Below, in pieces: positions 35,111 through 53,282 of a stretch of 64,000 bases of DNA. Position numbers and translations under genes: made by a program. Numbering within the stretch: the stretch's first letter is position 1; each line of letters begins with the position of its first letter. The notes beneath the pieces were generated by a model. It was not told the origin of the DNA. It did not search any database and saw only the letters and a program-made list of their open reading frames with translations. Source of the stretch: Streptomyces sp. cg36 (GTDB lineage Bacteria > Actinomycetota > Actinomycetes > Streptomycetales > Streptomycetaceae); contig NZ_CP163520.1 in assembly GCF_041080675.1 (NCBI RefSeq), forward strand, positions 8,151,501 to 8,215,500. Reading direction: 5' to 3'.

Positions 35111-36550
35111 TCAGACGGGCTGCCGATGTGCGGGCACGGGGGAGCGGGCGTTCGACGGGTCTTGTGGGGAGGCGTGCGGCTTGCTGGTGATCAGTAGGCC
35201 AAGGGCGGCGGTGACCACACCGCCGGCCGTGAGAATCCACCAGGCTGGACGTACGGCGGCGGCGAAGGCGGCGGCGTCGGTCAACGGGGCGCCGTGCAGC
35301 CCGGTGTTGAGGATCGCCCCGAGGAGGGCGACGCCCATCGCGAAGGCAGATCGGCCGAACGTGGTGAGCATCCCCGAGGCGAGCCCGGCCCGGTCCGACG
35401 GCAGGCCCGACACTCCGGCGGTCATCACGAGCGGGCTGGACAGGCCGATCCCCAGTCCGAACAGGACGTACTCGACGACGAGCAGGACCCGGGAGGCATC
35501 CTCTGCGCAGAGCGCGGTCAGAGCCCCGCTCATGGCGAGGGCCGCCCCCGCTGCGACGAGCACGGACCGCGTGCCGCACCACCGGGCGATCGCGGCGGCC
35601 CCCAGGGAGGAGGCGGCGAGCACACCGGCAGGCACCAGCATCCACAGGCCCGCCTCGGCGGCGGACATGCCCAGCGGGTTCTGCAGGTAGAGGGCGGTGA
35701 GGAAGAAGAAGCCGCCGAACGTACCGAACACGGAAACGGCGGAGGCGATGGCCCCGCCGAACCGGCGGTCACGGAAGAGTGCCAGGTCGATCAGCGGCTC
35801 TCGACGCCGGTGTTCATACGCGAGCAGTCCGGCACAGGAAGCGGCGGCGACGGCGAGGCAGACGATGACGGCGAGGGCGCTCCAGCCGGCCCGCGGCGCT
35901 TCGATCACCGCGTAGGCCAGCGGCCCCAGCAGCATGATGACCAGCAGTTGGCCGACCGGGTCCGCACGGCGCGGCCGTTCGGCCTTCGACTCGGTGACGC
36001 TGCGGACCGCGATGAGCAAGGCGATGATGCCGAAGGGAACGTTGAGCCAGAACACCGACCGCCAGCCGATGGTGTCCACCAGGACCCCGCCGACCACCGG
36101 ACCGAGGGCCAGACCGATGCCGTAGGCCCCCATCCAGACGCCGATGGCACGCAGGCGCGCCCGCTGCCTGGGGAACGCGTGCGAGACGATCGCCATGCTC
36201 ACCGGGCCCAGCCCCGCAGCGCCCACGCCCTGGAGGATCCGGAAGCAGAGCAGCGCGGGCAGGTTGGGGGCGAGCGCGCACAGCACCGAGGCGACCGTGA
36301 AGATCACGACTCCCGCGATCAGTACCCGCTTGCGGCCGATCCGGTCACCTGTCGACCCGGTCCAGAGCATCAGCGTGGCCATGGCCAGGCTGTAGGCCGC
36401 GATCGCCCACTGCATCCCCGAGACGGAGGCGCCCAGGTCCCGCTCCATGGCGGGGAGGGCGACGTTCAGTGCGGTGACGTCGATGCCGACCATGCTGATG
36501 GCAGCCGAACACACCGCCAGGGCAAGCGTGCGGTTGTGGGGGGTGGGCAT
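35111..36550 (-). CDS. MFS multidrug exporter, DHA2 (EmrB/QacA) type
   Basis: 479 residues, about 14 hydrophobic helices. Motif A (GSTGDRIGRKRVLIAG), motif C (GLALGPVVGGVLVDTIGWRSVFWLNVPFGI) and motif D1 near the N terminus (GIDVTALNVALPAMERDL) identify a DHA2 proton-driven drug exporter. The ATG at 36550 is the family start; the frame is open upstream. No regulator is adjacent. It converges on the secreted-protein gene. Export of a drug or secondary metabolite is probable. Confidence 0.9.
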   Translation of the reverse strand: MPTPHNRTLALAVCSAAISMVGIDVTALNVALPAMERDLGASVSGMQWAIAAYSLAMATLMLWTGSTGDRIGRKRVLIAGVVIFTVASVLCALAPNLPALLCFRILQGVGAAGLGPVSMAIVSHAFPRQRARLRAIGVWMGAYGIGLALGPVVGGVLVDTIGWRSVFWLNVPFGIIALLIAVRSVTESKAERPRRADPVGQLLVIMLLGPLAYAVIEAPRAGWSALAVIVCLAVAAASCAGLLAYEHRRREPLIDLALFRDRRFGGAIASAVSVFGTFGGFFFLTALYLQNPLGMSAAEAGLWMLVPAGVLAASSLGAAAIARWCGTRSVLVAAGAALAMSGALTALCAEDASRVLLVVEYVLFGLGIGLSSPLVMTAGVSGLPSDRAGLASGMLTTFGRSAFAMGVALLGAILNTGLHGAPLTDAAAFAAAVRPAWWILTAGGVVTAALGLLITSKPHASPQDPSNARSPVPAHRQPV

Positions 36551-38067
36551 GGGCGGCGGCCTTTCCCGCAGGGGATGTTTCCTCCGACGATCCGCTCGCA
36601 CGTCACCGCCCGCCATCGAGCACCTGGTGGAGTGGGGAGATACCGTTTGTCCCCCGGTCGTCGGGTTCGGCTTCCCCCGGTCGTCGGGCGTGACCGATGG
36701 CGTGGCTCGGTTCGGCTCCGACTGAGGTGGCGGGGGCAGGGGAGTGGGGCCCTCGCTGACGCGTGTTCGCACGGTGGCCCACCGCTTCGGACCGTCTGCC
36801 CTTGGGGTCGTGTCGCCGGGGCCGTTGAAATCACTTGGGTACCGGTAGTGCGAGACCGCATCAGAAGGCTGCTTTTCCTTCAGATGAATGGGCGGAAGAA
36901 ATCAGCCGCGCGTCCGCAAACACGCGATTCGATGGCGCCGAAACGAGACGTTCGGGTTGCAAGCAATCAAGGTGGCATCCACGTGGTATATGCCTGTGAC
37001 CAGTTACTTTGACTCCCTGTTTCCGTTGGTACGGTCCACTTTTTTCGGACACTCACCGGCGAGTGTCGCAGTTCGTGGATTCCTGGGCCCTATTGTCGTT
37101 GCTGCAAGTCACGGACCATGAGCAGATGGTTCGCACCTGTCCGTCATGTGGGGCGCGGGCGTGATCTGACCTGTGAGTACTCGGTGCTCGTACGGGGCGG
37201 GACACCGCGGGGAGAGGCACGGCGAGGTACTCGGGTGCGCGATCGGCCGGGTGCCCGAGGCGGCCTTCCGTTTTGAGTGAGCGTGGGGGAGGCAGTGGTG
37301 GGGTGCGAGATGCCGGGCGGGTGCCGACCGGGCTGCCATGCCGTTCATGGCCGAGGGGCGCGAAAGCGTCGCGGGCCCGAGCGGTGTCGGGGAGGCGCGG
37401 GGTGTACCACCGCTCGGCGTGCACTGCTGCGACGGCTTCCGGCGAACTCCCGCTCAGCCGCTTCCACCTGCACGTTCACACGGCATTCGGCAGTGCGTCG
37501 GTGGGTCTCCGGTTGGCGCCGGGTCTTCGCGTCCGGGCGGCGGCGACCATGGGGGTGTGGTTCGGCCCTTGGCGGTCATCCCGGTCGGTTGTTGTCCGAC
37601 CCGCCTGTTCGGTTGCGGTCCCACTGCACTCCGGCCACCGGTGTGCGATCGGGCGCGGGGACGCGCCGGGCGTGCGCCGCGTACGGATTCTGACTGTTCC
37701 TTCCCTGGGGCCAGTCCCGGCTCCGGGCCCTGACCCGAGGGCGTGGGCCCGACCCGGGCCGCCCCGATTCCGGATCGTCCTCCTCGGCGAGAGGCTTCGC
37801 GGCCATCCCGCGGGACCTCGCACCCGCCCGGCTCGATCAGCTGGGCCTGTCCGTCGGTAATCTCCCCGTTCCGCGACGAGCAACAGCGTTGATTTCCTCA
37901 TTCTTCGGGTGTCCTGACAAAAGCAGCTGCGCGGAAGAGGAAACCCGCCTGCGAATATTCCGCCCACGACGTGAGGCGCCGCTGTCCCCTGCCCTGATGA
38001 GGGTCTTCAGGGTATCCCGCGAAAGCACATCCGGGCCGGTTCAGTCCATTGCGAAAAGGAGAACCTC
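36551..38067. other. 1.5-kb region without a supportable gene
   Basis: Between the divergent exporter and decarboxylase genes lie 1517 bp. Several long open frames cross it on both strands, but their products are Arg/Pro/Ser-rich, without domains, signal peptides or ribosome sites, as expected from GC-biased noncoding DNA. The portion ~36840-37130 is AT-richer. The right end must hold the promoter of the decarboxylase cassette. I see no repeat, tRNA or mobile-element remnant. Confidence 0.45.
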
Positions 38068-39675
38068 GTGACGGAAACGCGGTCGATGAATCGTGACCTT
38101 GAACGGCGTCCTGGCGCACCGTCTCCTTCGGTCGGCGTGCAACCGGCCCCGGTCTCCCGGCTGGAGCACGGCAGTAGGCAGGGGCGGCTGCTGCGCGACA
38201 CGTTCGACGCCCGGCTGTTCCGTCAGACCTCCGGCCAGGCCATCGACCAGTTGGAGGCACACCTCTCGGACTTCTCGCTGCGGGGGGTGGAGCTGACGGA
38301 ACCCGCGGTCCTCACCGAGGCCGCCAGGTCGCTGATGACCACGGAGACCGACGGCATCGCCGAGTTCGACGAGAAGAAGCTCGCCGCGATCATCGACCTG
38401 TACATCAGGACCGGCATCCAGGTGCACTCGCCCGGCTACATGGGGCGCCAGTTCTCCGGGGTCGTGCCGCTGGCCGGGGTCATCGACTTCGTGAGCTCGG
38501 TGGTCAACCAGCCGTCGTCGTTCTACGAGGCGGGCCAGCTGCCGAACGTTGCGGAACGGATCATGGCCGATGAACTCAACCGGTTCATCGGCTGGGACCC
38601 CGGCACCTTCGCCATGCTGACCACGTCGGGAGGCTCCCTGGCCAACCTGACCGCGCTGCTCGCCGCCAGGAACCGCAAGCTCCCCGCGTACTGGTCCCAG
38701 GGTGGCTCCGCCCTGGCCGGCGGTGCCCGTCCGGCCATCGCGGTGGGCGCCGACGTCCACTACAGCATGGCCCGTGCGGCCGGGGTGATGGGCATTGGTG
38801 AGGACCAGCTCGTCCGCCTTCCCTCCAACGACCGGCACCAGATCGACGTGGACATGGTGCGCCCCACCCTCGAAGCGGCCGAGCGGCGCAACCTCAAGGT
38901 GTTCTGCCTGGTCGCCTCGGCCGGAACCACCTCGGTGGGTGCCTTCGACCCGCTCGACGAACTCGCCGCGATCGCACGGGAGAAGGACATCTGGCTGCAC
39001 GTCGACGGGGCGCACGGGGCGAGCCTGCTGGTCTCGGAGAAGCTGCGCGGAAAGCTCCGGGGCATCGACCAGGCGGACTCGCTGACCTGGGACGCGCACA
39101 AGATGATGTTCGTGCCCGCGCCCTGCACACTGCTGTTCTACCGCAGGCGGGAGGACAGTCTCGGCGCGTTCCGGCAGAAGAAGGCGAGCTACGTCTTCGA
39201 CGAGGAGCCGGACATCTATACCGAACTCGACAGCGGCGACAAGAACTTCGAGTGCACCAAGCGCCCCATGATCATGACGCTGTGGACGCTCTGGGCGGTC
39301 TACGGGCGGGCACTGTTCGCCGAGAAGATCGAGCACTTGTGCCAACTGGCGTCCGACGCCCACGACATGCTGCTGACCGAGCCGGACTTCACCCCCGTGC
39401 ACCGTCCGGAGGCGAACATCCTGTGCTTCCGCTACCGGCCGGAAGGCGTGGGCGAACAGGAGCTCCACCGGCTCCAGGTGGCGATCCGCAACCGCATCAA
39501 GCGGGGCGGCAGGTTCTTCATCTCCAAGGTGAACGTCGACGGGGTCGCCGCGCTGCGCGTGGTGATGATGAACCACGAGATCACGGCCGGGCACTTCCGG
39601 ATGCTGCTCGGCGAGATACGCAGGACCGGACAGGAGCTGCTGGCCGGCAGCGACGGCGATGACGGACAGGAGTGA
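38068..39675 (+). CDS. Group II PLP-dependent decarboxylase
   Basis: 535 residues from a GTG behind AAAAGGAG. Group II (aromatic/DABA/glutamate-type) decarboxylase motifs are all present: TTSGGSLANLTALLAARN (185-202), PLP-stacking His231 in DVHYSMARAAG, VASAGTTSVGAFDP, Asp313 in HVDGAHGA, and the Schiff-base Lys345 in WDAHKMMF. The enzyme should convert an amino acid to an amine and CO2; residues fixing the substrate cannot be read. It opens an operon with an adenylate-forming enzyme (5 nt away) and four tandem PixA/AidA-like genes. Confidence 0.9.
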   Translation: MTETRSMNRDLERRPGAPSPSVGVQPAPVSRLEHGSRQGRLLRDTFDARLFRQTSGQAIDQLEAHLSDFSLRGVELTEPAVLTEAARSLMTTETDGIAEFDEKKLAAIIDLYIRTGIQVHSPGYMGRQFSGVVPLAGVIDFVSSVVNQPSSFYEAGQLPNVAERIMADELNRFIGWDPGTFAMLTTSGGSLANLTALLAARNRKLPAYWSQGGSALAGGARPAIAVGADVHYSMARAAGVMGIGEDQLVRLPSNDRHQIDVDMVRPTLEAAERRNLKVFCLVASAGTTSVGAFDPLDELAAIAREKDIWLHVDGAHGASLLVSEKLRGKLRGIDQADSLTWDAHKMMFVPAPCTLLFYRRREDSLGAFRQKKASYVFDEEPDIYTELDSGDKNFECTKRPMIMTLWTLWAVYGRALFAEKIEHLCQLASDAHDMLLTEPDFTPVHRPEANILCFRYRPEGVGEQELHRLQVAIRNRIKRGGRFFISKVNVDGVAALRVVMMNHEITAGHFRMLLGEIRRTGQELLAGSDGDDGQE

Positions 39676-39680
39676 ACCCG

Positions 39681-41240
39681 ATGACCACGGTGAAAGCGCC
39701 GCAGGAGAATCACGTGGTACCCAGCGATGCCAATGAACTCGCCAAGTGGCTGATCCCCGACTGGGAATGGCGGCCGGACTCGGTCGACGCCGTCACCCGG
39801 CTGCCCTCCTTCGCCAGCAAGATGCGCGAGGCGGAACGGGTGTGCAAGGCGCCCTTCAGCGAAGTGGCCCACGACATCCAGGACGCCCTGGTGCTGCGCC
39901 GCCTCCAGCAGATGGTGCACACGGTGCTGCTCAATCCGCTGTGGCGCGACCGGCTGGCGAGCTCCGCGGCCGACCGTACCCCGGACTCCTTCGAGGCGTG
40001 GCAGGCGATTCCGCTCTCCGACAAGGAGGTGCAGCGGGAGTTCTTCATGGACGACCGCGCGGGCATGGTCGTCCCCCTCACCCGCGGTGAGTTCGAGATC
40101 GTGGCCAGCGGCGGCACGAGCAGCGGACGTCCGCTGGAGACGGTGTACTCGCTGGCCGAGTTGCGCGACACCTATGAGGTGGCGGGCCGTTTCATGGGCA
40201 GCTACCAGCTCGACGCGTATCTGCGCGGGGACGACCCGAAGTGGCTCTACACCACCCTGGCCGACTACCAGATGTGGAGCAGCGGCACCATGGTGGGCGG
40301 GGTGCTGCAGAGCGTGCCGGGCGTCAACTACATCGGCGCGGGGCCGGTCACCGCCCCGGTCCTTGAGCACATGTTCTCCTACCGGGGCCCGAAGGCCCTG
40401 ATGGGGATCTCGGCGGGCATCGCGATCCTGAGCGAACTCGGCGCCGGGATGAGCCGCGCGGCCAAGGAGAGCTTCCGGGTCGCGCTGTACGGAAGCGGGG
40501 TGCTCCCGCACCGCAAGCGCGCCGAACTCAAGGCGATGTATCCGAACCTGTCGATCCTGAGCTACTTCGCCGCCACCCAGGCGGAGACCATCGGGCTCCA
40601 GCTGCGGGAGGAGGTGCCCTGGCTGGCGGCGGTGCCGGGACTACACTTCATCGAGATCGTCGACGAGCGGGGCCGCTGGGTCCCCGAGGGCCAGGAGGGC
40701 GAGCTCGTCGTCACCCGGCTGCACGCCCACGAGGCGCCGCTGCTGCGGCTGAAGCTCGGGGACCGCATGATCCGCAGGCCCCGGCTGGACGGGCCCGGGC
40801 TGAAGACCCAGCAGTTCGAGTTCGCGGGCCGCACCGGGGACATCCTGCACATCAACGACAGCCAGTACTCGGCGGTCCGTGCCTATGAGGCGGTCCGTGA
40901 CGAACTGCGGTCGGTGACCGCGGTGAACCTGGACGAGGTGGCGCACGAGACCCAGTTCGTCAACCACCGCGAGGGCAAGACCATCACGCTGTTCGCGGCG
41001 GTCGACGAGGCGCACGCGCTGACGTACCGGGTGGATACGGCGCTCGGACCGTACGGCGTCCAGCACCTGTTCGTGAACGCCCTGCCCCGTTCGCTCTCCC
41101 TGTTCAACGCGGGCGAGGCGAACCCCGCGTCGATCGAGAAGACCGGGTACCAGTTCCGCCTGGTGTTCGTGCCCCGTTCCTCGCCGGACATCGAGCGGAC
41201 CGACGTCGGCAAGGTGCCGCTGGTCCGCGACCGTGGATAG
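39681..41240 (+). CDS. PaaK-like adenylate-forming enzyme
   Basis: 519 residues. The nucleotide loop IVASGGTSSGRPLETVY, the LSYFAATQAETIG region and a hinge-like FAGRTGDILHINDSQY agree with phenylacetate-CoA-ligase-like adenylating enzymes; the C-terminal ~110 residues correspond to the small lid domain. It should activate a carboxylic acid as acyl-AMP and pass it to CoA, an amine or a carrier. ATG chosen at 39681 behind ACAGGAG (a GTG at 39672 is possible). Together with the upstream decarboxylase it suggests amide or conjugate formation, but no carrier protein is encoded nearby. Confidence 0.75.
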   Translation: MTTVKAPQENHVVPSDANELAKWLIPDWEWRPDSVDAVTRLPSFASKMREAERVCKAPFSEVAHDIQDALVLRRLQQMVHTVLLNPLWRDRLASSAADRTPDSFEAWQAIPLSDKEVQREFFMDDRAGMVVPLTRGEFEIVASGGTSSGRPLETVYSLAELRDTYEVAGRFMGSYQLDAYLRGDDPKWLYTTLADYQMWSSGTMVGGVLQSVPGVNYIGAGPVTAPVLEHMFSYRGPKALMGISAGIAILSELGAGMSRAAKESFRVALYGSGVLPHRKRAELKAMYPNLSILSYFAATQAETIGLQLREEVPWLAAVPGLHFIEIVDERGRWVPEGQEGELVVTRLHAHEAPLLRLKLGDRMIRRPRLDGPGLKTQQFEFAGRTGDILHINDSQYSAVRAYEAVRDELRSVTAVNLDEVAHETQFVNHREGKTITLFAAVDEAHALTYRVDTALGPYGVQHLFVNALPRSLSLFNAGEANPASIEKTGYQFRLVFVPRSSPDIERTDVGKVPLVRDRG

Positions 41241-41320
41241 CGGGTCACCGGGCGGGCGCCGGCCAAAGGGGAAACCGGAGAAATGAAGCGGAAGTCAGCC
41301 GGAGAAGACAAGGAGTGCGC

Positions 41321-41749
41321 ATGAAACCCAATGTGAGCATCATCGCCCTGGTGGACGTGATCGGGGCGCTGTCGGACCGGACGCTGCTCAACGGCAACCT
41401 CGGCCTCGTGGACGACGGCTCGTTCGACAGCACCGGGCAGGGTACGCCCAGCCTGTGCACCGTCGTGGAGCCGGGCCAGACCGTCCAGTGGACCGCGCTC
41501 GCCGTCGACCTGCAGACACCGGTCGAAATCAGGAACATCACGTTCCTGCGGGCCGACGGCGCCGAGGCGGGTGAGCCCGCGCAGGAGGAGGCCCAGACGG
41601 ACGCCGCACGCCTCGACCTCGACGTGTGGAGCGGCGTGGTCCCGTACCTGCCGCCGGGCGTGCCCCACAAGTACCGCCTCGAACTGCAGATGTACGACGG
41701 CGCCAACAGCGTCCTGCACATCGATTCCCCCGCCCTGATGTGCCAGTAG
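41321..41749 (+). CDS. PixA/AidA-like protein 1
   Basis: 142 residues. The shared family signature reads SIIALVDVIGAL, then LNGNLGLVDDG, STGQGTPSLCT and VEPGQTVQWTA, followed by an acidic linker and VWSGVVPYLPPGVPHKYRLELQMYDG. This pattern resembles the inclusion-body protein PixA of Xenorhabdus and the AidA family: a short beta-rich cytosolic protein with no signal peptide or catalytic motif. The ATG at 41321 follows AAGGAG. First of four tandem relatives; the family identity is from memory of motifs and needs a profile search. Confidence 0.55.
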   Translation: MKPNVSIIALVDVIGALSDRTLLNGNLGLVDDGSFDSTGQGTPSLCTVVEPGQTVQWTALAVDLQTPVEIRNITFLRADGAEAGEPAQEEAQTDAARLDLDVWSGVVPYLPPGVPHKYRLELQMYDGANSVLHIDSPALMCQ

Positions 41750-41777
41750 CCGGAAATCCGACGAGGAAGGCGGGCTC

Positions 41778-42581
41778 ATGCCCCAGCAGTTAGCGATCAT
41801 CGTGCTCGTGGACGTCGGCAACGCGCTGGAGTCCGGCACGCTGGACGGGAACACCTACCTGTTCGACAACATGAAGCTGCAGGGTTCGACGAACCAGGGC
41901 ACCGGTGAGCTGGTGACCGCGATCAACGGCTCCTACTGGCTGGACGGTTCACAGGCCAGTGAGCAGGTCCTCAACTGGCTCCCGTACAGCCTGGGTTCGA
42001 TTCCGCCGACGGTGCCGCGCGGCTACACGGCCGAGCGGGCCCGCCAGACCGACCAGCAGGCGCTGGCCGACCTGGACGCGCTCTCCGTCAAGCCGCCCGC
42101 GACGGACACCGAGGCCGCCGCCGAACTGGGGCGGATCAAACGGACCGTCGGTACGCGGATCAAGACCACCCGGCGCACCCGCGGCCGGCTGTCCGGGCAG
42201 AAGATCCTGGACGTCACCGGGCAGGTGGTCACCGACGAGAACACGGGCGCGCACAGCTATCCCGCCCCGGTCATCACGGACGTCTTCGGTGCGGCGGTCG
42301 ACGAGAAGATCATGTATCCGGCGGAGTACGGCTCGCCGGACCTGGTGACCGACGGCTGGTACTGGTCCGCCACGGTCGACACCTCGCGCCCGGGAACGTA
42401 CGCCTACTCGATGCGCATCCAGCTGCACAGGCTGGTGCAGGAGGGGGGCGAGGCGCTGTGGCAGCCGGTCAACCTGACGTGCCAGTCGGACATCAAGGTG
42501 ACCAGCGCTCCCCGGCGCAACGCGTTCACCAAGGCCGGTGTGGGCATGCTCCCCATTCCGCCGTCCCCGCCGCGCCCGTGA
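41778..42581 (+). CDS. PixA/AidA-like protein 2, long form with TTA codon
   Basis: 267 residues, nearly twice the length of its neighbours. The signature is LAIIVLVDVGNAL, LDGNTYLFDN, STNQGTGELVT at the start and DGWYWSATVDTSRPGTYAYSMRIQLH near the end. A ~110-residue insert (about 70-180) is polar, with a basic stretch RIKTTRRTRGRLSGQK. Codon 5 (41790-41792) is TTA, the rare leucine codon read by bldA tRNA in Streptomyces. It starts 28 nt after gene 1 behind GAGGAAGG. The insert may mediate assembly or partner binding; function unknown. Confidence 0.5.
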   Translation: MPQQLAIIVLVDVGNALESGTLDGNTYLFDNMKLQGSTNQGTGELVTAINGSYWLDGSQASEQVLNWLPYSLGSIPPTVPRGYTAERARQTDQQALADLDALSVKPPATDTEAAAELGRIKRTVGTRIKTTRRTRGRLSGQKILDVTGQVVTDENTGAHSYPAPVITDVFGAAVDEKIMYPAEYGSPDLVTDGWYWSATVDTSRPGTYAYSMRIQLHRLVQEGGEALWQPVNLTCQSDIKVTSAPRRNAFTKAGVGMLPIPPSPPRP

Positions 42582-42616
42582 CACTCCCTGAGCCACAGCG
42601 AACGAGGAGGAAGGCA

Positions 42617-43057
42617 ATGACCACCAAACCCCGTCAGAGGGTCGAGGAGAACAACGGCGCCAAGCGGCCGATCTCGATCACGGCTGTGGTGGACTGCGTC
42701 GGTGTGCTCGCCACCGGCAGCGTCCACGGCCAGCTGTACCTGTACGACACCAACAAGGCGGGCGGTTCCACCGGGTTCGGCACCGAGGAGCTGCGGACCC
42801 GGGTGCGGCGCGGGGACCAGCTGCTGTGGAACGTCCTGGCGCTGGAGTGCGAGGCGTACGTGAGCATCGACGACATCGTCGTCGACAGGGAGGTGTGCGA
42901 GCCGGAGCGGCGGGTGTATCCGGGCACGGACGTCGCCTACTGGATCGCCACGGTGAAGAAGGACGGCATCACCTCCGTCCCGTACCAGATCAAGTTCAAG
43001 GTCGGCACCCGGACCGAAGCATTCACCGCACCGGTGTCGGCCTCCCTGGTCGGCTAG
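42617..43057 (+). CDS. PixA/AidA-like protein 3
   Basis: 146 residues. A short charged N terminus (residues 1-17) precedes the signature SITAVVDCVGVL, VHGQLYLYDTN, STGFGTEELRT and RRGDQLLWNV; the second half YPGTDVAYWIATVKKDG and PYQIKFKV matches the closing strands of the other copies. Ribosome site GGAGGAAGG directly before the ATG. It lies 35 nt after gene 2 and 43 nt before gene 4. Probably beta-rich, cytosolic and assembling with its paralogues, by analogy with inclusion-body proteins. Confidence 0.55.
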   Translation: MTTKPRQRVEENNGAKRPISITAVVDCVGVLATGSVHGQLYLYDTNKAGGSTGFGTEELRTRVRRGDQLLWNVLALECEAYVSIDDIVVDREVCEPERRVYPGTDVAYWIATVKKDGITSVPYQIKFKVGTRTEAFTAPVSASLVG

Positions 43058-43100
43058 CCGGTCGGGCAAATACGAGCGGCGTGGCCAAGGAGGAGTGTTG

Positions 43101-43661
43101 ATGAGCACGACGCAGCAGCGCGCGCAGGACACGGTGGACAAGCAGAACCCGGGACAGCTCAACTCGGTACAGCTCAACGTCGTCACGCTCGTGAACATGG
43201 AGCGGGCGGCGGAGACGGGCCAGCTGAGCGAAGCGATGTACATGATGGACAACAGCGTCGGCGGGGCCGGTCAGGGCACCCACCACCTGGAGACCGTCTG
43301 CAAGCAGGGCCAGGTCATCAACTGGATCATCCGGCCGATCGACATGGAGAAGCGGCCGGACGGCACCTGGCCGCCGATGCCCAAGATCAACAGCATCGTC
43401 TTCCTCGACACCGAACTCGGCGACGAGGAGGACGTGATCGAGCGGAAGATCTTCACCGAGCTGAAGATCTACGGGGCACCGGACCGGATGCGCGACAAGT
43501 TCACCCCGGTCTACTACTACTGGGCGGGCACCGTCCTGAGCACCGCCCGGCCCGGCGTCTACCGCTACCGGCTGGTTCTGGAGCTGGAACAGGACGGCAA
43601 GAAGGAGAAGCTGTACCTGAACACCGTCGACCACCCGGCGATCCGGGTGCTCGCCGTCTGA
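43101..43661 (+). CDS. PixA/AidA-like protein 4
   Basis: 186 residues, the most divergent copy. The signature is LNVVTLVNMERAA, LSEAMYMMDN, GAGQGTHHLET and KQGQVINWIIRP, with closing YYYWAGTVLSTARPGVYRYRLVLELEQDG. An insert (about 80-120, EKRPDGTWPPMPKINSIV and DTELGDEEDV) separates the halves. ATG at 43101 follows AAGGAGGAG. A very strong hairpin begins 20 nt after the stop, so this is the end of the cassette that begins with the decarboxylase. Confidence 0.5.
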   Translation: MSTTQQRAQDTVDKQNPGQLNSVQLNVVTLVNMERAAETGQLSEAMYMMDNSVGGAGQGTHHLETVCKQGQVINWIIRPIDMEKRPDGTWPPMPKINSIVFLDTELGDEEDVIERKIFTELKIYGAPDRMRDKFTPVYYYWAGTVLSTARPGVYRYRLVLELEQDGKKEKLYLNTVDHPAIRVLAV

Positions 43662-43680
43662 CCCCCACGCCACGGGTCCC

Positions 43681-43720
43681 GCACCGGGCCGGGCCGCCCT
43701 GCCGGGGCCCGGCCCGGTGC
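43681..43720 (+). terminator. Very strong terminator of the decarboxylase/PixA-like cassette
   Basis: GCACCGGGCCGGGCC (43681-43695) and GGCCCGGCCCGGTGC (43706-43720) are perfect 15-bp arms with a 10-nt loop. It separates the cassette from the MBL-fold gene at 43766. The outer 10 bp of the stem are the same as in the hairpin at 47551-47581. Confidence 0.9.
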
Positions 43721-43765
43721 GGACGGAAGGAGCACCACCATGAGACGGCAGGAAGGAAGACGGCC

Positions 43766-44566
43766 ATGGCACCACCGACGGGTCAGCGACCGCCCCTGAG
43801 CGTGCACTATCTGGGCGGACCCACCACGGTCCTGGAGATCGGCGGGCTGCGGTTGCTCACCGACCCGACCTTCGACCCGCCCGGCGACTACCCCACCCCC
43901 GCCGGGATCCTCACCAAGACCGCCGGTCCGGCACTGCCGCGGACCGGCATCGGCGCGATCGACGCCGTGCTGCTCTCCCACGACCAGCACCCCGACAACC
44001 TCGACGACGCGGGACGCGCCCACCTCGCCGAGATGCCGCTGGTCCTGTCCACCCGCTCCGCCGAGGAACGCCTCGGCGGGTCCACCCGCCACCTGGCCAA
44101 CTGGAGCCATGTGGACCTCCCGTGCCCGGACGGCACCGCCCTGCGCGTCACGGGAGTGCCCGCGCTCCACGGCCCGCCCGGCAGCGAACCCTTCGTCGGC
44201 GAGGTCACCGGGTTCGTCCTCTCCGGGGAGCGGGTGCCCACCGTGTACGTCAGCGGGGACAACGCCTCCCTCGACGTCGTCCGGGAGATCAAGGAGCAGT
44301 CCCCGCCCATCGATGTGGCCATCCTGTTCGTCGGGGCCGTCCAGATCTCCGCGATGCCCGGCGCCTACCTCACCCTGACGAGCGCCGAGGCCGCACAGGC
44401 CGCCCGCATCCTCGGGGCCCGCGAAGTCGTCGCCGTGCACTTCGAGCAGTGGAACCACTACACCGAAGGCCGGGACAACCTGCGGTACGCCTTCGAGGAG
44501 GCGGGCCTCGGCGGCCGGTTCCACCTGCCGGGAATGGGGGAACACGTCCTGCTGCCAGCCGGCTGA
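43766..44566 (+). CDS. MBL-fold metal-dependent hydrolase
   Basis: 266 residues with a metallo-beta-lactamase fold: LSVHYLGGPTTVLEIGGLRLLTDPTFDPPG at the start, a metal motif LLSHDQHPDNLDD (usual HDHHADN in this actinobacterial group, so one His is Gln), VTGVPALHGPPG, VSGDNASLDVV and a late VAVHFEQWNHY. The ATG follows GGAAGGAAG. The Gln may weaken one zinc position. It lies behind the cassette terminator, so it is probably a separate unit with its own hairpin. Substrate unknown; UlaG-like lactonase chemistry is one possibility. Confidence 0.82.
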   Translation: MAPPTGQRPPLSVHYLGGPTTVLEIGGLRLLTDPTFDPPGDYPTPAGILTKTAGPALPRTGIGAIDAVLLSHDQHPDNLDDAGRAHLAEMPLVLSTRSAEERLGGSTRHLANWSHVDLPCPDGTALRVTGVPALHGPPGSEPFVGEVTGFVLSGERVPTVYVSGDNASLDVVREIKEQSPPIDVAILFVGAVQISAMPGAYLTLTSAEAAQAARILGAREVVAVHFEQWNHYTEGRDNLRYAFEEAGLGGRFHLPGMGEHVLLPAG

Positions 44567-45336: not shown

Positions 45337-46068
45337 TCAGAGCCGGGCCCGGGCGACCCGCACCAGGGCGTCGAACAGGTTCTGCTGTGCGGGATCGTGG
45401 TGCGCGGTGTCCTCGGGGTGCCACTGGACGGCGCTGAACCAGCCGCGCGGTCGGGGGCCCTCCAGGGCCTCGGGGGTGCGGTCGGCGGCCCGTGCCGTGA
45501 CCACCAGGCCCGCGCCGAGCCGGTCGACGCACTGGTGGTGGTAGCAGGAGGCCGTCACCATCCCCGTACCCGTCATCCGGTGGAGCAGCGTGCCGGGCTC
45601 CACCGCCACCTGGTGCACCAGATGGCGGTGCGGGCGCCGCCAGGGGCTCATGTCCTGGTGCAGGGTGCCGCCGAGCGCGACGTTCACCACGTGCAGGCCG
45701 CGGCAGATGGCCAGGAGCGGCTGCCCCGACCCCAGGGCCTGGCGGGCGACTTCGAGGTCGAAGCCGTCCTGGTCGCGGTCGACGTCGTAGACGCTGCCGT
45801 GGACGGTGCGTCCGCCGTAGCGGCTGGGCGCCAGGTCGCCGCCGCCCGGCAGCAGCACCGCCTGGAAGCGGGCGAGGCGCACCGCCACGTCGACCGGGTC
45901 GGCGATGCCGCCCGGCGCGTAGGGGTGGACCGAGACCGGCTCGCCGCCCGCTCGCCACACGGCGTCGACCAGGGCGCGGGCGTTGACCTCCGCCGCGTAG
46001 CGCAGCGCGGAGGCACCGGCCGAGAAACGGGCGGGGATCGCGATCAGGGGCCGGGGCAGCGCGGTCAT
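45337..46068 (-). CDS. Class I glutamine-amidotransferase-like gamma-glutamyl hydrolase (peptidase C26)
   Basis: 243 residues. The nucleophile is Cys in LLAICRGLHVVNVALGGTLHQD, and the His-Glu pair is in VQWHPED, as in PuuD-type gamma-glutamyl-GABA hydrolases. These release glutamate from gamma-glutamylated amines or acids in the cytosol. Its ATG overlaps the permease stop as ATGA; it is the last gene of the minus-strand operon. A glutamine-synthetase-like ligase is encoded divergently in the same island, so the two form the expected add-and-remove glutamyl pair. Confidence 0.9.
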   Translation of the reverse strand: MTALPRPLIAIPARFSAGASALRYAAEVNARALVDAVWRAGGEPVSVHPYAPGGIADPVDVAVRLARFQAVLLPGGGDLAPSRYGGRTVHGSVYDVDRDQDGFDLEVARQALGSGQPLLAICRGLHVVNVALGGTLHQDMSPWRRPHRHLVHQVAVEPGTLLHRMTGTGMVTASCYHHQCVDRLGAGLVVTARAADRTPEALEGPRPRGWFSAVQWHPEDTAHHDPAQQNLFDALVRVARARL

Positions 46069-47510
46069 GGCCCGTTCTCCGGGCCCGGCGCACGCGGGCG
46101 GACGAGCCGGGCCGCGACCGCGCCGGCGACGAGGACGGCGGGGACGATGGCCGCGAGCCGGACGGCCGTCGCCGTGTCACCGCCGATCAGCGTGGTGAAG
46201 TTGGCGAGGATCAGCGCGAGGGCACCAGCGATGCCCAGTGCGCCGAGCGCCGGGGCGGCCACGGTGTGCCAGATGCGGGCGTCCAGACGCGCACGGCGGA
46301 AGAAGACGACCACGGAGACCGAGGTGAGGAAGTAGAGCAGCATGATGGCGAGCACGGCCACGCCGCTGAACCAGGAGAACAGCGTCAGCACCGGATCCCG
46401 CCCGGCCACCGCGAACGGCATCACGAGCAGTACCGCCACGGTGCTCTGCACACATCCCGCCACCCAGGGCGCGTGCCGCCGGTTGAGCACGCACAGCATC
46501 CGGGGCAGCACGCCTTCGCGGCCGAGGGAGAACAGATAGCGGTCGGCGGAGTTGTGGAAGGCCAGCATCCCGGCGAACAGGGAGGTGGCCAGCAGGACCG
46601 GCAGGACGTCGTCGGCCCAGCCCCCGAACCGGTCCGCGATCGGCTGGAACACGAAGGACGGGGAATCGCCGCCGGCCAGCGCCCGTCCGGCCGCGTCGCC
46701 CGCCCTCGACGCCCCGTACGCCGAGACGACCATCCACGACACGAACGCGAAGAACGCCGTGACCAGGGTGATCGACAGATAGGTGGCGCGGGGCACCGTC
46801 CGGTGCGGCTCGCGGGCCTCCTCGCCGTAGATGGCGGTCGCCTCGAAACCGAACATCGAGGCCACGGCGAACATGAGGGCCACCCCCGGGGCGCCCTGGA
46901 GCGCGGCGTGCGGGGAGAAGCTGTGGGCGAGGCCGAGTCCTTCGGGGCCGCCGCCGCGCGCGAGGGTGGTCAGGGCGAAGGCGAGGAGCACACCGGTCTC
47001 GGCGAGCACGAACACCGCCAGTACCCGGGCGCCCATGTCGATGGCGGCGGCGCCGAGCACCTGCACGACGGCCATGGTGGCCAGCGCCCAGGCCCACCAC
47101 GGCACGTCCACGCCCGCGTGGCGCTCCACGAGAGCCCGCACGGTCGCGCCGTACAGCCCGTACATCGCGGCCTGGATGGTGCAGTACGCCAGCAGCGCCA
47201 CGCCCGCGCCGGCCACGCCGGCGGTGCGGCCCAGGCCGCGGCCGATGTAGGTGTAGAAGGCGCCCGCGTCGACCACATGGTGTGCCATGGCGACGAATCC
47301 GACGGAGAACAGCAGGACCACCGCGCCCGCGAGCAGATAGGCGGCGGGTGCTCCCGGTCCGTTGCCCAGGCCCACCGAGAGCGGGACGGCCCCGGCGATG
47401 CCGGTCAGCGGAGCCTGTGCGGACAGGACGAGGAAGAGGATGCCCAGCACGCCGAGCGCGTTGGGCTTGAGTCTGGCGACGACGGGGGCGGCTCCCGGAG
47501 TCTTTCGCAT
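46065..47510 (-). CDS. APC-family amino acid/amine permease
   Basis: 481 residues with about 12 helices. The N terminus LKPNALGVLGILFLVLSAQAPLTGIAGAVP and the segment GAFYTYIGRGLGRTAGVAGAGVALLAY are typical of APC superfamily permeases, as is VASMFGFEATAIYGEEAREPHRTVPRATY. It should import an amino acid or amine by proton symport. It is coupled (ATGA) to the gamma-glutamyl hydrolase and lies downstream of ring-cleavage genes, so an aromatic amine or amino acid is a plausible substrate. A hairpin separates it from the FAH gene. Confidence 0.9.
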   Translation of the reverse strand: MRKTPGAAPVVARLKPNALGVLGILFLVLSAQAPLTGIAGAVPLSVGLGNGPGAPAAYLLAGAVVLLFSVGFVAMAHHVVDAGAFYTYIGRGLGRTAGVAGAGVALLAYCTIQAAMYGLYGATVRALVERHAGVDVPWWAWALATMAVVQVLGAAAIDMGARVLAVFVLAETGVLLAFALTTLARGGGPEGLGLAHSFSPHAALQGAPGVALMFAVASMFGFEATAIYGEEAREPHRTVPRATYLSITLVTAFFAFVSWMVVSAYGASRAGDAAGRALAGGDSPSFVFQPIADRFGGWADDVLPVLLATSLFAGMLAFHNSADRYLFSLGREGVLPRMLCVLNRRHAPWVAGCVQSTVAVLLVMPFAVAGRDPVLTLFSWFSGVAVLAIMLLYFLTSVSVVVFFRRARLDARIWHTVAAPALGALGIAGALALILANFTTLIGGDTATAVRLAAIVPAVLVAGAVAARLVRPRAPGPENGP

Positions 47511-47550
47511 GCCAACTCCTCTGGGCGGCGGGCGTGGGGAGGGGGCGCCC

Positions 47551-47581
47551 GCACCGGGCCTCCCCGTGGCAGGCCCGGTGC
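47551..47581 (-). terminator. Intra-operon hairpin between FAH-type gene and permease
   Basis: GCACCGGGCC (47551-47560) and GGCCCGGTGC (47572-47581) are perfect 10-bp arms with an 11-nt loop, in the 89-bp gap between the FAH-type gene and the permease. It could attenuate transcription so that permease and hydrolase are made at a lower level, or mark a processing site. Confidence 0.65.
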
Positions 47582-47599
47582 GGTACGTCGGTGTGGTGC

Positions 47600-48445
47600 T
47601 CAGCGCACCGGCGGCCGGATGCCGCGGAGCTCCCAGTCGCCTCCGAGAGCCGTGGAGCGGACCTCCTCGGACTCGGTGGGCTGGGCGCCGATGTCGGTGC
47701 GCAGGGGGGTGGGACCCTCGACGACACGGTTGGTGAGCCGGCCGAGGCCCTCCACCGTGACCTCCACGACGTCCCCGGGGCGTACCGGGCGGGAGCCCGC
47801 CGGGGTGCCCGAGAGCAGTACGTCGCCCGGGTGGAGGGTGATCGTGCGGGCGATGTCGGCGACGAGGTAGTGCATGTCCCAGGCCATCTCGTCGGTCGAA
47901 CCGTCCTGGGCGAGTTCCCCGTTGACGTAGGTGCGCAGGCGCTTGCCGTGGAAGTCCCAGTCGGTGACCAGCCCCGGACCGAGCGGGCACAGGGTGTCGG
48001 AGCCCTTGACGCGCAGCATGGAACCGGCGTCGGTGTCCCGGAAGTCGTGCAGCCCGAAGTCGTCGGCGATGGTGTAGCCCGCGATGTGGGCGGCTGCCTC
48101 GTGCGGTGCGATGTTGCGTGCGGCGCGGCCGATGACGATCGCGATCTCGCCCTCGTAGTTCAGCCACTTGCAGCCCCGGGGCCGCACCACCGCGCCCTGG
48201 TGGGAGTTGAGGGACGAGGTGGGTTTGTGGAAGTAGGTGGGGGCGGGCGGCAGTTGGGCCCGGAACTCCTCGACCCGGCTGCGGTGGTTCAGGTGGACGG
48301 CGATCACCTTGGACGGGACGGTGGGCGGCAGGTGCACGGCCTGGTCGGCCTTGACGCGGCGCCCGTCGCCCGCGACGAGCTCGTCGTCCTCGCGCACGAC
48401 CTCGACGGCGGCCCCGTCCAGCAGGATGCGGCGGTACTCGGCCAT
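47600..48445 (-). CDS. Fumarylacetoacetate-hydrolase-family protein (HpaG-like isomerase/decarboxylase)
   Basis: 281 residues. The C-terminal ~200 residues carry FAH-fold marks: KVIAVHLNHRSRVEEF, YFHKPTSSLNSH, metal-binding Glu residues in LNYEGEIAIVIGR and DFGLHDFRD, and LLSGTPAGSRPVRPGD. In homoprotocatechuate degradation this family isomerises and decarboxylates the ring-cleavage product. Position directly after HpaD- and HpaE-like genes (1-nt gap to HpaD) supports that role. Which of the two HpaG activities it performs cannot be told. Confidence 0.85.
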   Translation of the reverse strand: MAEYRRILLDGAAVEVVREDDELVAGDGRRVKADQAVHLPPTVPSKVIAVHLNHRSRVEEFRAQLPPAPTYFHKPTSSLNSHQGAVVRPRGCKWLNYEGEIAIVIGRAARNIAPHEAAAHIAGYTIADDFGLHDFRDTDAGSMLRVKGSDTLCPLGPGLVTDWDFHGKRLRTYVNGELAQDGSTDEMAWDMHYLVADIARTITLHPGDVLLSGTPAGSRPVRPGDVVEVTVEGLGRLTNRVVEGPTPLRTDIGAQPTESEEVRSTALGGDWELRGIRPPVR

Positions 48446-48446
48446 G

Positions 48447-49391
48447 TCATGCCTTTCGGGGTCGGCTGTGCGGTGTGCGCGGCGGCGGGGGAGCGGGCGG
48501 CCCGGTGCCGGTCCAGCCGTCGGCGGGCCGGTCGAACCAGAGGTGTGCCTGTCCGGTGCCGATCGCGTTCTCGTACGCGCCGTACTGGCGGGCGGGCGCG
48601 GTGCAGGCGTCCTCGCCGAGGGCGCCCGCGAGCATCAGGTAGTGGGCGAACCGGGCCTCGGGTTTGAAGCGTGCGAACTCCGGCATGGCCCGCAGGACCG
48701 CGTCGTGCCGGCCCTCCTTGAACCAGTCGATGCGGCGCAGGTCGGCGGCCCGGGCCTCGGGCGTGCGGATGTGGGCCGGGTCGCTCGACTCGTGGGCGCG
48801 CAGTTCCCGCAGCGGCCAGAAGGAATGCGACAGCGCCCCGGAGGCGATGAGGAGGACCCGGCGGCTCGGAGTGGCGGCGACGGCCTCGGCCAGCGCCCGG
48901 CCCAGGCGCAGGTGGTCCTCGGTGTCACCGGTCTGGCACACCCCGATGGACAGCCACTTCTTGTCGGGCAGCCCCTCGCCGAGGAACTTCCACAGGTTGA
49001 TGGTGGCGTAGTGCACCGGCAGGTAGGGGTCGTCGACCGCCGTGATCCAGGTGCCGTGCCGCTCCGCGAACGAGGCGAGGGCGTGGGCGAGTTCGGGGTC
49101 GCCGGGGTAGTCGTAGAGCATCCGGCACATCCCGCGGGGCAGTTCCTCCGAGGTGAACAGGCCGGCCCTTCGGCTGTGCGCGGTCACGACGAACTCCACC
49201 GTGGTCGCCCAGTGCGAGTCGAGGACGACGACGGTGTCGTAGTCGAGGGCCTCGAAGACGTCGTGGCGCAGCCGGCGCAGCCCCGTCACGAGGGTGATCT
49301 CCTCGCCCCCGTTGAGTTCGAGGCGGGCCGGCTCGGGCAGGACGATGGTGGGCACATGGGCGAGCAGTCCCGCCCCGACGATCTCACCCAT
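48447..49391 (-). CDS. hpaD: 3,4-dihydroxyphenylacetate 2,3-dioxygenase-like extradiol enzyme
   Basis: 314 residues of the LigB class III extradiol dioxygenase family. HVPTIVLPE near the N terminus, VVVLDSHWATTVEFVV, YTSNELP-like LFTSEELPRGM, and ASGALSHSFWPLRELRAHE follow the E. coli HpaD pattern, including the conserved His residues for iron. The last ~25 residues are a Pro/Arg-rich tail. It opens homoprotocatechuate next to a hydroxyl. It overlaps the HpaE-like gene by 8 nt. Other catechols with a side chain cannot be excluded. Confidence 0.85.
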   Translation of the reverse strand: MGEIVGAGLLAHVPTIVLPEPARLELNGGEEITLVTGLRRLRHDVFEALDYDTVVVLDSHWATTVEFVVTAHSRRAGLFTSEELPRGMCRMLYDYPGDPELAHALASFAERHGTWITAVDDPYLPVHYATINLWKFLGEGLPDKKWLSIGVCQTGDTEDHLRLGRALAEAVAATPSRRVLLIASGALSHSFWPLRELRAHESSDPAHIRTPEARAADLRRIDWFKEGRHDAVLRAMPEFARFKPEARFAHYLMLAGALGEDACTAPARQYGAYENAIGTGQAHLWFDRPADGWTGTGPPAPPPPRTPHSRPRKA

Positions 49392-50856
49392 GCTCGCTCC
49401 AGCCGGTCGGGGCGGTCACCGTGGTGTGCAGGTCGCAGTAGAAGTCGAAGCTCCAGGTGCCGCCCTCGCGGCCGATCCCCGAGCTGCGCGCCCCGCCGAA
49501 CGGGGCGCGCAGGTCCCGTACGAAGAAGCAGTTGACCCAGACGGTGCCCGCGACCAGCCGGGCCGCCACGCGGGCGGCGCGGTCGCGGTCGCCGGTGGCG
49601 AGGGTGGCGGCCAGGCCGAACCGGGTGCCGTTGGCCAGGGTCAGTGCCTCCTGCTCGGTGCGGAAGGTCTGGAGGGTGAGGACCGGGCCGAAGACCTCCT
49701 CCTGGACGATCTCGCTGTCCTGGGCCACCTGGGTGAGCAGGGTGGGCCGGTAGTGCAGCGGGCCCAGCTGGGGGTGCGGGCTGCCACCGGTCAGGACCCG
49801 GGCTCCCTGTTCCACCGCGCGCCGTACGAAACCGTCGACCTTCTCCAGCTGGCGCGGGTGGACCAGGGGACCGAGCTCGGTGGATTCGGTGCGCGGGTCC
49901 CCCTGGCGCAGCCCTTCGGCGCGCGCCACCAGGCGGCGGGTGAACTCGGCGGCGACGGGCTCCTCGACCAGCAGCCGGGTGGCCGCCAGGCACACCTGGC
50001 CCGCGTTGTCGTACTGCTCCACGGCCAGGTCCACCGCGAGGTCGAGATCCGCGTCGGCGAAGACCAACAGCGGTGATTTGCCGCCCAGTTCCAGGCTGAC
50101 GGGCGTGAGGTTGCGGGCCGCTGCCGCGGCGACCGCACGTCCGGTGGGCACCGATCCGGTGAAGCTGATGCGGCGGATGCCCGGGTGGGCGGCCAGTGCG
50201 CGGCCCGCCTCGGTGCCGTATCCCTGGACGACGTTGAGGACCCCCGGCGGCAGGCCGGCCTCGTGGGCGATGTCGGCCAGCAGTGACGCGGTGAGCGGGG
50301 ACCACTCGGCGGGTTTGAGGACCACGGTGTTCCCGGCCGCCAGCGCGGGGGCGACCTTCCACGTCGCCAGCATCAGCGGGGCGTTCCACGGTGTGATCAG
50401 CGCGCACGGTCCCGCCGGGCGCCAGGCGACCTGGTTGGTGTGGCCGCGCGTGGCGAAGTCCGGGTGCGCCAGGGAGAGGAGCCGGTCGGCGAAGAAGCGG
50501 AAGTTGTGGGCCACCCGGGGCATCACGCCGACGCGGTGCGAGCGCAGGAGCGCTCCGTTGTCGGCGGTCTCGACCTGGGCGAGCTCGTCGAGGCGCTTGT
50601 GCACCCCGTCGGCGATCGCGTGCAGGAGGCGGGCCCGCTCGGCGGGGGGTGTGGCGGCCCAGTCGGGGAAGGCGTTGGCGGCGGCCTGCACTGCCGCGTC
50701 GGCCTCGGGGGCCGCACCGCGTGCGATGGAGGCGAGGGGGCGGCCGTCGATGGGGGAGAGGTCGGTGAAGACGGTGGCGGATCCGCGGCGCCGGCCGTCG
50801 ATCCAGTGCCGGGTGTCGACGTCGGTACCGGCCACGGTGGCCAGGTGGTCGCTCAT
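49384..50856 (-). CDS. hpaE: 5-carboxymethyl-2-hydroxymuconate semialdehyde dehydrogenase-like
   Basis: 490 residues of the NAD(P)-dependent aldehyde dehydrogenase superfamily. ITPWNAPLMLATWKVAPALAAGNTVVLKPAEWSPLTASLLADI binds the cofactor; catalytic Glu is in LELGGKSPLL and Cys in DNAGQVCLAATRLL; the C terminus PFGGARSSGIGREGGTWSFDFYCD is that of HpaE/HpcC-type enzymes. It oxidises the semialdehyde made by the HpaD-like dioxygenase encoded immediately downstream. One nucleotide separates it from the preceding ADC-family gene. Confidence 0.88.
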   Translation of the reverse strand: MSDHLATVAGTDVDTRHWIDGRRRGSATVFTDLSPIDGRPLASIARGAAPEADAAVQAAANAFPDWAATPPAERARLLHAIADGVHKRLDELAQVETADNGALLRSHRVGVMPRVAHNFRFFADRLLSLAHPDFATRGHTNQVAWRPAGPCALITPWNAPLMLATWKVAPALAAGNTVVLKPAEWSPLTASLLADIAHEAGLPPGVLNVVQGYGTEAGRALAAHPGIRRISFTGSVPTGRAVAAAAARNLTPVSLELGGKSPLLVFADADLDLAVDLAVEQYDNAGQVCLAATRLLVEEPVAAEFTRRLVARAEGLRQGDPRTESTELGPLVHPRQLEKVDGFVRRAVEQGARVLTGGSPHPQLGPLHYRPTLLTQVAQDSEIVQEEVFGPVLTLQTFRTEQEALTLANGTRFGLAATLATGDRDRAARVAARLVAGTVWVNCFFVRDLRAPFGGARSSGIGREGGTWSFDFYCDLHTTVTAPTGWSEHG

Positions 50857-50857
50857 G

Positions 50858-51667
50858 TCAGTCTCCGGCGCCGGAGGTGTGGGACTCCAGCAGGCGCCCG
50901 CCGTCCCAGACGACGCCGACCTGCCGGTAGTAGGCGGCGATCGGCTCGCGCACGGCCAGCCGTGCCAGCTCCTCGGTGGGGGCCTCGAACAGTTCCAGCT
51001 CGGCCTCGCCGGTCCACGCCTGGCCGCCGTCGAAGGAGGCCGCCGCCGATTCGACCAGCTCGTCCAGGGCGAGTCCCTTGCCCTTCTCGATCGACGGGAG
51101 CCACCGGTGGTGGGCCATGGGGTGGGCGTTGACGAACCCGCTGGTGGACGAGGGCCCGTGCAGGGTCACCACCGCCTGGGCGATCCGGCGGTCGGCGGCG
51201 GCGAGCGTGGCGCCCAGCCGCGCACCGGCCTCCAGGCGGGGCGCGGGGCCGAACGGGTGCGGCCGGGTCTGGTGGATCGAGCCGAGCTTCTTGGGATAGC
51301 CCTGGTGCAGCCCCCGGGCGATCGCGAAGTCCTTGTCGACCCAGATGTACACGCAGCGGGAGTAGAGACGTCCGCGGTAGGAGCAGCGCACGGCGGCGAA
51401 CGCCTCTTTGTACTGGGCGCGCACCGGGTCGAGCAGCTCTTCGCCCGAGGCCGAGCAGGACTGCCAGTCGGCCCAGATCAGGGCGACCGCGCCCGGGTCG
51501 TCGGGGGCGGTCTCCAGCGGTGGCGGCAGGAGTTCGCGGACCCGGGCGGGATCGGTGCGGTACTCGACGGTGAGCAGGTCGCCGGAGTAGCGCCAGGGGG
51601 GAGCGGGGACCAGGGAGGCGGCACCGGTCGCCGTCTTGGGATGGAAGTAGCCACGGACGCCGGTCAC
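50858..51667 (-). CDS. Acetoacetate-decarboxylase-family protein with PK motif
   Basis: 269 residues from a GTG that overlaps the reductase stop (GTGA). LLTVEYRTDPARVRELLPPPLE, then CSYRGRLYSRCVYIWVDKDFAIARGLHQGYPKKLGSI, shows the ADC pattern, and here the active-site Lys position (YPKK) is kept, unlike the PKS-linked relative at 11591. Members decarboxylate beta-keto acids or perform related Schiff-base chemistry. Within the ring-cleavage operon it may act on an early intermediate or on the side chain; the step is unknown. Confidence 0.78.
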   Translation of the reverse strand: MTGVRGYFHPKTATGAASLVPAPPWRYSGDLLTVEYRTDPARVRELLPPPLETAPDDPGAVALIWADWQSCSASGEELLDPVRAQYKEAFAAVRCSYRGRLYSRCVYIWVDKDFAIARGLHQGYPKKLGSIHQTRPHPFGPAPRLEAGARLGATLAAADRRIAQAVVTLHGPSSTSGFVNAHPMAHHRWLPSIEKGKGLALDELVESAAASFDGGQAWTGEAELELFEAPTEELARLAVREPIAAYYRQVGVVWDGGRLLESHTSGAGD

Positions 51668-52896: not shown

Positions 52897-53090
52897 GGCT
52901 CCGAGCCCTCGATCAGGATCGCCTGCATGGGGCAGACGTCGGCGGCCTCCTCGACGTCGTCGCGCAGGGCGTCGTCGGGGTGGGAGACGTGGACGAGCTG
53001 CGCGCCGTCGTCGAGACGGAAGACGTCGGGGGCGGCGAACACGCACTGTCCGTGGTTTTGACACTTGTCCATGTCGACGACGACCTTCAT
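52893..53090 (-). CDS. [3Fe-4S]-type ferredoxin for a P450
   Basis: 65 residues. Cys10 and Cys16 are separated by five residues without the middle Cys, and Cys53 is followed by Pro, giving C-x5-C-xn-CP, the pattern of actinobacterial 3Fe-4S P450 ferredoxins. Start at 53090; an upstream in-frame ATG at 53129 overlaps the operator. First gene of the minus-strand operon, co-translated with the reductase. Confidence 0.92.
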   Translation of the reverse strand: MKVVVDMDKCQNHGQCVFAAPDVFRLDDGAQLVHVSHPDDALRDDVEEAADVCPMQAILIEGSEP

Positions 53091-53115
53091 GGGCCCGTCC
53101 TCCTGGATCCCGAAG

Positions 53116-53133: not shown

Positions 53134-53218
53134 CATAGGCGCCTGCGCAGACCAGGTCAACGCCCCGCACTCACAAAGTAGTTGGCGCCCGGACCCTTGT
53201 GGCCCGGCGCCACGCCCT

Positions 53219-53246: not shown

Positions 53247-53282
53247 ACGGTGCTCCGCCCTGGGATCCCCTGGGAGACATCC

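Follow-up and report, generated by a model that had tools for sequence, protein, structure and literature searches.

A conserved six-gene bacterial cassette that links a decarboxylase and a PaaK-type adenylate-forming enzyme to four MakC/MakD-like proteins

A stretch of 64,000 nucleotides from Streptomyces sp. cg36, here called the window, was analyzed, and coordinates given below are positions within it. Six genes lie on the same strand between 38068 and 43661, and we label them in their order DC, LIG and S1 to S4. DC (38068-39675, +) begins with GTG and encodes a group II decarboxylase of 535 amino acids that depends on pyridoxal phosphate (PLP). LIG (39672-41240, +) encodes a PaaK-family adenylate-forming enzyme of 522 amino acids counted from a GTG; if this start is right DC and LIG overlap by 4 bp, and an in-frame ATG at 39681 would abolish the overlap. 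The four genes that follow, also on the plus strand, encode small proteins of a single family: S1 (41321-41749; 142 amino acids), a relative of MakC and MakD, S2 (41778-42581; 267 amino acids), which carries a long insertion, S3 (42617-43057; 146 amino acids) and S4 (43101-43661; 186 amino acids). The first-pass annotation of this DNA had noted a decarboxylase, an acyl-adenylating enzyme and four co-directional small proteins in this place, and the observation of the six-gene unit is confirmed. Its interpretation, in which PixA/AidA-like proteins store or carry the product of the two enzymes, is as a whole partly supported. A GC-rich hairpin of 19 pairs with one bulge (43679-43722, +), with a stability of -52.1 kcal/mol (z -2.95) that was equaled in 1 of 200 shuffles, lies 3' of S4 and probably marks the end of the operon. 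A terminator with a 15-bp stem had been proposed here; the hairpin itself is present, and because it has no T run and is not among the calls of a terminator scan of the window, we only infer the role of terminator.

The first-pass annotation called for a conserved linkage of the small proteins to the two enzymes in other genomes. A search of a plasmid collection with S3 matched 7 records, of which 4 are typed as conjugative, and all six genes were present in each of the four records that were opened, from Nonomuraea, Bradyrhizobium elkanii, Sinorhizobium alkalisoli and Bradyrhizobium barranii. The genome contigs of GTDB were scanned with the LIG alignment and two LIG peptide patterns, giving 102 pattern matches and 90 relatives, of which 80 were kept, at 79 loci. 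The window, the four plasmid loci and these 79 loci make up a set of 84; since LIG was the search criterion for the 79, only the other five genes count there as independent evidence. The counts were taken from first-round profiles, the second-round profiles having matched open reading frames (ORFs) in shadow frames. In 82 of the 84 loci the order and strand of all six genes are identical, which excludes chance. In one of the two exceptions, L069, the contig stops after LIG. In the other, from an uncultured Kordia (L083), DC and LIG form one ORF of 1046 amino acids (L083:8345-11485), followed by S1 to S4, with a separate second DC-LIG pair just upstream of the fusion; such a second pair is also found in L080, L084 and L087. 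The predicted linkage was thus found.

The hosts are scattered among soil, root-nodule and water bacteria. The phyla named in the groups of the LIG tree are Actinomycetota, Cyanobacteriota, Pseudomonadota, Bacteroidota, Chloroflexota and Acidobacteriota, to which a single Aminicenantes bin is added; some of the loci are metagenome bins and may include foreign contigs. The LIG rows nearest to that of the window all come from Streptomycetaceae. Four changes are needed on the tree for the Pseudomonadota, and two or more of these fall on starred branches, which fits transfer between phyla without proving it. The cassettes on the Bradyrhizobium and Sinorhizobium plasmids (L007, L008 and L009) sit near transposase or toxin-antitoxin genes. 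Across 80 loci, the pairwise distances of the genes correlate with coefficients from 0.848 to 0.957 for the 15 gene pairs, and for no pair did any of 200 permutations reach as high a value. Compared between loci, all 320 S proteins had their best match in the protein of their own slot, which marks S1 to S4 as distinct subunits. In the window's genus (199 genomes, its own included) LIG is found in 5, and matches to the S family occur in the same 5, four in each. When 396 genomes of the phylum were sampled, the window's own genome alone scored, both for LIG and for S3, a thin sample from which no more than the rarity of the cassette can be concluded. Taken together, the distances, the slot matches and these genome counts indicate a cassette that is rare, scattered and inherited whole, and that probably spreads horizontally. 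No match to LIG at the DNA level was found in E. coli genomes. PADLOC, given 7 proteins, returned no hit, and the cassette is therefore no known defence system.

The assignment of DC as a PLP decarboxylase, made from the window before any profile search, is borne out by a match to PF00282 with 174.9 bits against a cut-off of 27 and by the PLP lysine in the motif DAHK, of which HK is kept in all 83 rows with a letter at these positions. Like GAD1, GAD2, GADL1, CSAD and PanP, DC belongs to this family. Decarboxylases of the glutamate and cysteine-sulfinate type are closest to DC, whose nearest solved structures are GAD1, GAD2 and GADL1 (E from 7e-52, for GAD, to 6e-51), and the PanP model is matched with E 1e-51, although the score of 176 bits is far under the PanP cut-off of 606. 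DC differs from GAD67 at the position of Q190, a residue that in GAD67 touches the distal carboxylate of the substrate. Here DC has an arginine in all 82 rows with a letter, and in its motif VDGAH the histidine is present in 83 of 83. Because of this invariant arginine and the role of Q190, it is a reasonable guess that the substrate of DC bears an anionic side chain.

LIG has no Pfam match above a cut-off (AMP-binding, E 0.19), and in NCBIfam it has weak matches, with E between 7e-8 and 7e-3, the majority of them to models of the PaaK type; the LIG profile matches the PaaK-type structure 4r1l with E 9e-13. A structure model of LIG, with a mean confidence score (pLDDT) of 86, resembles 4r1l/4rvo, PaaK1, NatL2, AjiA1 and ClxA at 12-18% identity. 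Residues E291, D350, R373 and, near the C terminus, K500 do not vary among the 24 rows aligned, and it is for this reason that LIG looks catalytically intact. The predicted PaaK fold, the adenylation motifs and the C-terminal lysine agree with the acyl-adenylating enzyme that had been suggested. LIG therefore shares with NatL2, AjiA1 and ClxA the fold and invariant residues at the adenylation motifs, but it forms a separate clade that adjoins DC in the loci examined. Among the 120 listed of its 409 relatives, the names are hypothetical protein, phenylacetate-CoA ligase and, once, CoF synthetase. As to what enzymes of this kind may do, NatL2 is reported to carry out an ATP-dependent adenylation that leads to an ester in nataxazole biosynthesis (PMC7204872), and benzoxazole biosynthesis is said to use ClxA as an amide ligase (PMC12519233).

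That the four small proteins are alike had been noticed from recurring short motifs, and profile comparisons agree. The NCBIfam model MakCD (NF049870) matches S1 (E 6e-10, 39.2 bits), S2 (E 4e-11, 43.0 bits, in two stretches), S3 (E 4e-19, 68.8 bits) and S4 (E 2e-13, 50.7 bits), all of them under the curated cut-off of 110 bits. In the organism's own genome this model at E<=1 matched the S1 to S4 genes alone, in five stretches, and in a sample of 274 genomes from the class of L052 it matched the centre genome alone. Alignments of the four slots from 83 loci recover one another by hhalign with E from 7e-13 to 7e-32, and with hmmsearch each slot profile finds, at E<1e-3, between 78 and all 83 of the members of every other slot. 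At E<=1 Pfam has no match for any of S1 to S4. The likeness to PixA and AidA that the first-pass annotation proposed holds in part. None of the four proteins matched the PixA profile PF12306 at E<=1; the profile also had no hit at that level in the window's genome, where the controls were weak, and no match in 274 genomes from the class of L052, where the controls were silent too. A structure model of S3, however, has a fold that matches MakC, MakD and PixA, with both the MakC/MakD fold and the PixA beta-sandwich recognizable, and it is through this model that the fold class of the S proteins is established. By sequence, S3 alone finds MakC (8rqy) with 2e-10 and MakD (6tct) with 2e-7, and with the family profile these values become 1e-19 and 3e-16. 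8rqy was itself deposited under the name "Inclusion body protein". From PixA and AidA (PF12306; 4lzk, 4pib) the proteins differ in their low identity (16 and 13%) and in the genes alongside. From MakC and MakD of V. cholerae (NF049870; 8rqy, 6tct), which accompany the MakABE toxin genes, they differ in their scores under the family cut-off and in their setting, four paralogues with a decarboxylase and a ligase, in a cassette without a toxin gene.

We next consider how the four proteins may act together. MakC and MakD are reported to be cytosolic and to form, in crystals, head-to-tail homodimers through strands beta5-1-2-3 (PMC11484084). In S3 residues E77 and E79 are invariant (83/83), as are D63 and Q65 in S1 (83/83), and in an alignment of S3 with MakD these positions come just after the equivalent of the beta5 residue Cys59. 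Such slot-specific residues fit a specific pairing of the subunits and do not demonstrate it. Two natural fusion proteins of S3 and S4 (P0001 and P0002, of 344 and 339 amino acids and 80% identical) also exist, and S3 and S4 are therefore probably neighbors within one complex. Comparisons of this kind make it fairly probable that S1 to S4 form a hetero-oligomer.

The conserved columns also bear on what else the four proteins might do. One alternative is that they themselves perform chemistry, as an enzymatic or chaperone-like complex by which the product is completed once DC and LIG have acted, for instance through cyclization or release. This is unlikely: inspected by eye, the columns show no catalytic motif common to S1 to S4, as the first-pass annotation had also held, the likeness to SO1698 amounts to 8-9% identity, and a common fold proves no function. 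The published report on MakC and MakD describes what these two proteins do as unknown (PMC11484084). A further alternative is that LIG modifies the S proteins by attaching to them the DC product or some other acid. The strict linkage of the genes and the lack of a carrier protein in the cassette would suit this, but among the columns kept at >=97% the four slots do not share a single Lys, Ser or Cys and LIG is modeled as a PaaK-type ligase of small acids, so that we regard it as very improbable. Finally, S1 to S4 might be regulators, such as DNA mimics. Bnr1 of Burkholderia is a dimeric PixA-family protein described as acidic (pI 4.81) and DNA-mimic-like (PMC9060813), and S1 is likewise acidic, with a median isoelectric point (pI) of 4.69 and values below 5.5 in 69 of 83 loci. 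S3 and S4 are not consistently so (below 5.5 in 44 and 41 of 83, respectively), and four fixed slots tied to two enzymes are unlike a global regulator, which makes this proposal most improbable.

Several genes accompany the cassette in some loci. In 26 of the 84, a cysteine hydrolase of the isochorismatase fold lies within 1.1 kb of it, on either side and on either strand; the copy of L007 matches PF00857 and has a distant likeness to biuret amidohydrolase. A 27th match (L048, 7.1 kb away, score 22) was taken as chance. A class I/II aminotransferase lies between LIG and S1 in L052, L054 and L064, the L052 copy alone having been profiled, and 6 cyanobacterial loci have a GNAT-like gene close to the cassette, of which that of L055, the one profiled, scored 21.7 bits (cut-off 20.7). 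In the window, a hydrolase of the metallo-beta-lactamase fold (43766-44566, +; PF12706, 59.1 bits) is a possible accessory; 6 of the 83 other loci have a homologue nearby. An EmrB/DHA2-type exporter of the major facilitator superfamily (35111-36772, -; MFS_1, 198.6 bits) is a doubtful one: as exporter of the product it was rejected, since distant homologues (30-33% identity) occur at 4 of the 83 other loci, too few. A single-module type I polyketide synthase (KS-AT-DH-KR-ACP; 21712-27129, -) lies upstream, and the exporter may therefore belong to that group. The flank clusters include shadow ORFs; the hydrolase, metallo-beta-lactamase, exporter, GNAT and aminotransferase cases were examined. 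On the other side, a catabolic-looking group (45337-54647) comprises a peptidase C26/GATase, an amino acid permease, an FAA hydrolase, a LigB-type dioxygenase, an aldehyde dehydrogenase, a pyridine-nucleotide oxidoreductase and a glutamine-synthetase-like enzyme, and would suit the catabolism of an aromatic amine or of hydroxyphenylacetate; it was not among the conserved flanks in the flank clustering. Just upstream of the Nonomuraea cassette, an ORF (L006:2252-5131) that by eye resembles a copper amine oxidase might use the amine made by DC.

These surroundings may be set against another explanation, in which the enzymes make a toxic or signaling small molecule directed at eukaryotes and S1 to S4 are accessory, as MakC, MakD and AidA are to other effectors. 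The toxin of the MakC/MakD operon is reported to kill C. elegans and zebrafish, with predators as its presumed targets (PMC11484084), the title of another report names the killing of Tetrahymena (PMC12872930), AidA is said to be needed for virulence in C. elegans (PMC9060813), and the hosts of the cassette include planktonic cyanobacteria and root-nodule bacteria. The cassette has no toxin gene, however, and of the profiled neighbors in the window from 21.7 to 56 kb, where several ORFs matched nothing, none matched a pore-forming toxin in Pfam. The ecology being suggestive at most, we hold an anti-predator role to be improbable.

As a whole, these results lead us to the following proposal. DC would form an amine by decarboxylating an amino acid whose side chain is probably anionic, and LIG would adenylate a carboxylic acid with ATP and join it to this amine; alternatively, LIG may activate the carboxylate left on the DC product. 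Since the cassette has no gene for a carrier protein, direct formation of an amide or ester, or transfer to coenzyme A, is to be expected. The fixed order, the close packing and the one natural fusion argue that DC and LIG act together, and we are confident that they belong to a single small-molecule pathway. S1 to S4 would be beta-sandwich proteins of the cytosol and would pair in the manner of MakC and MakD, every subunit with a position of its own in one hetero-oligomer, and this assembly would bind, carry or store the product, or hold the enzymes together. While we infer the chemistry and this role of storage or carriage from the genes, that the assembly binds or stores the product is in itself possible but doubtful. 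The proposal in its entirety, a product of DC and LIG handled by a hetero-oligomer within a co-inherited cassette, is one that we favor tentatively, at somewhat short of an even chance.

A number of points weigh against this proposal. The conservation of LIG was built into 79 loci, two of its peptide patterns having been the search, and 80 of the 90 relatives were kept. The structure model is of S3 alone, S1, S2 and S4 having been placed by sequence; the acidic pair is looser in S4 (D81 in 66 and E83 in 44 of 83) and has no counterpart in S2. The S3-S4 fusions come, as far as shown, from metagenome-type sources and may be assembly errors. The hydrolase that accompanies other cassettes was not found anywhere in the whole window. 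Substrate, product and complex are predictions from the genes, as would be any inclusions of the kind known for PixA and AidA. We know of no small-molecule partner of MakC or MakD. Moreover, the crystals of these two proteins are reported to have shown homodimers rather than heterodimers, a heterodimer being predicted only (PMC11484084).

The fold group of the S proteins and both enzyme families are already known, and it is their combination that is new. MakC and MakD have been stated to be present exclusively in V. cholerae (PMC11484084), and the relatives found here, as judged from their sequences, would extend this group to several phyla. In the open-licence literature, judged by titles and the starts of abstracts, we found no description of the six-gene cassette, which does not in itself show its absence from print. 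The cassette looks like a real bacterial system that is so far undescribed, a gene unit, in part borne on plasmids, of actinomycetes, cyanobacteria, rhizobia and Bacteroidota. A search found 283 S3-type proteins; of these, 120 were listed, all without a Pfam domain and, by their (partial) names, hypothetical, uncharacterized or unnamed with two exceptions. P0070 and P0071 have the UniRef name "Allene oxide cyclase barrel-like", a name that no Pfam match supports for the S3 of the window.

PixA, AidA and MakC/MakD are relatives with solved structures and no settled molecular job. The cassette offers a biochemical handle on this fold group, since one can identify what the two enzymes make and then test how that compound relates to the four proteins. 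A more specific and quite speculative version, which we think improbable, is that the cassette is a self-contained factory for a natural product housed in protein, in which four dedicated subunits of the MakC/PixA fold build, in fixed stoichiometry, a cytosolic particle or fiber that encloses or displays an amide made by DC and LIG. If this were true, it would give the PixA/AidA/MakCD fold group its first common function, that of a scaffold for small-molecule cargo, and would represent a new kind of bacterial metabolic assembly.

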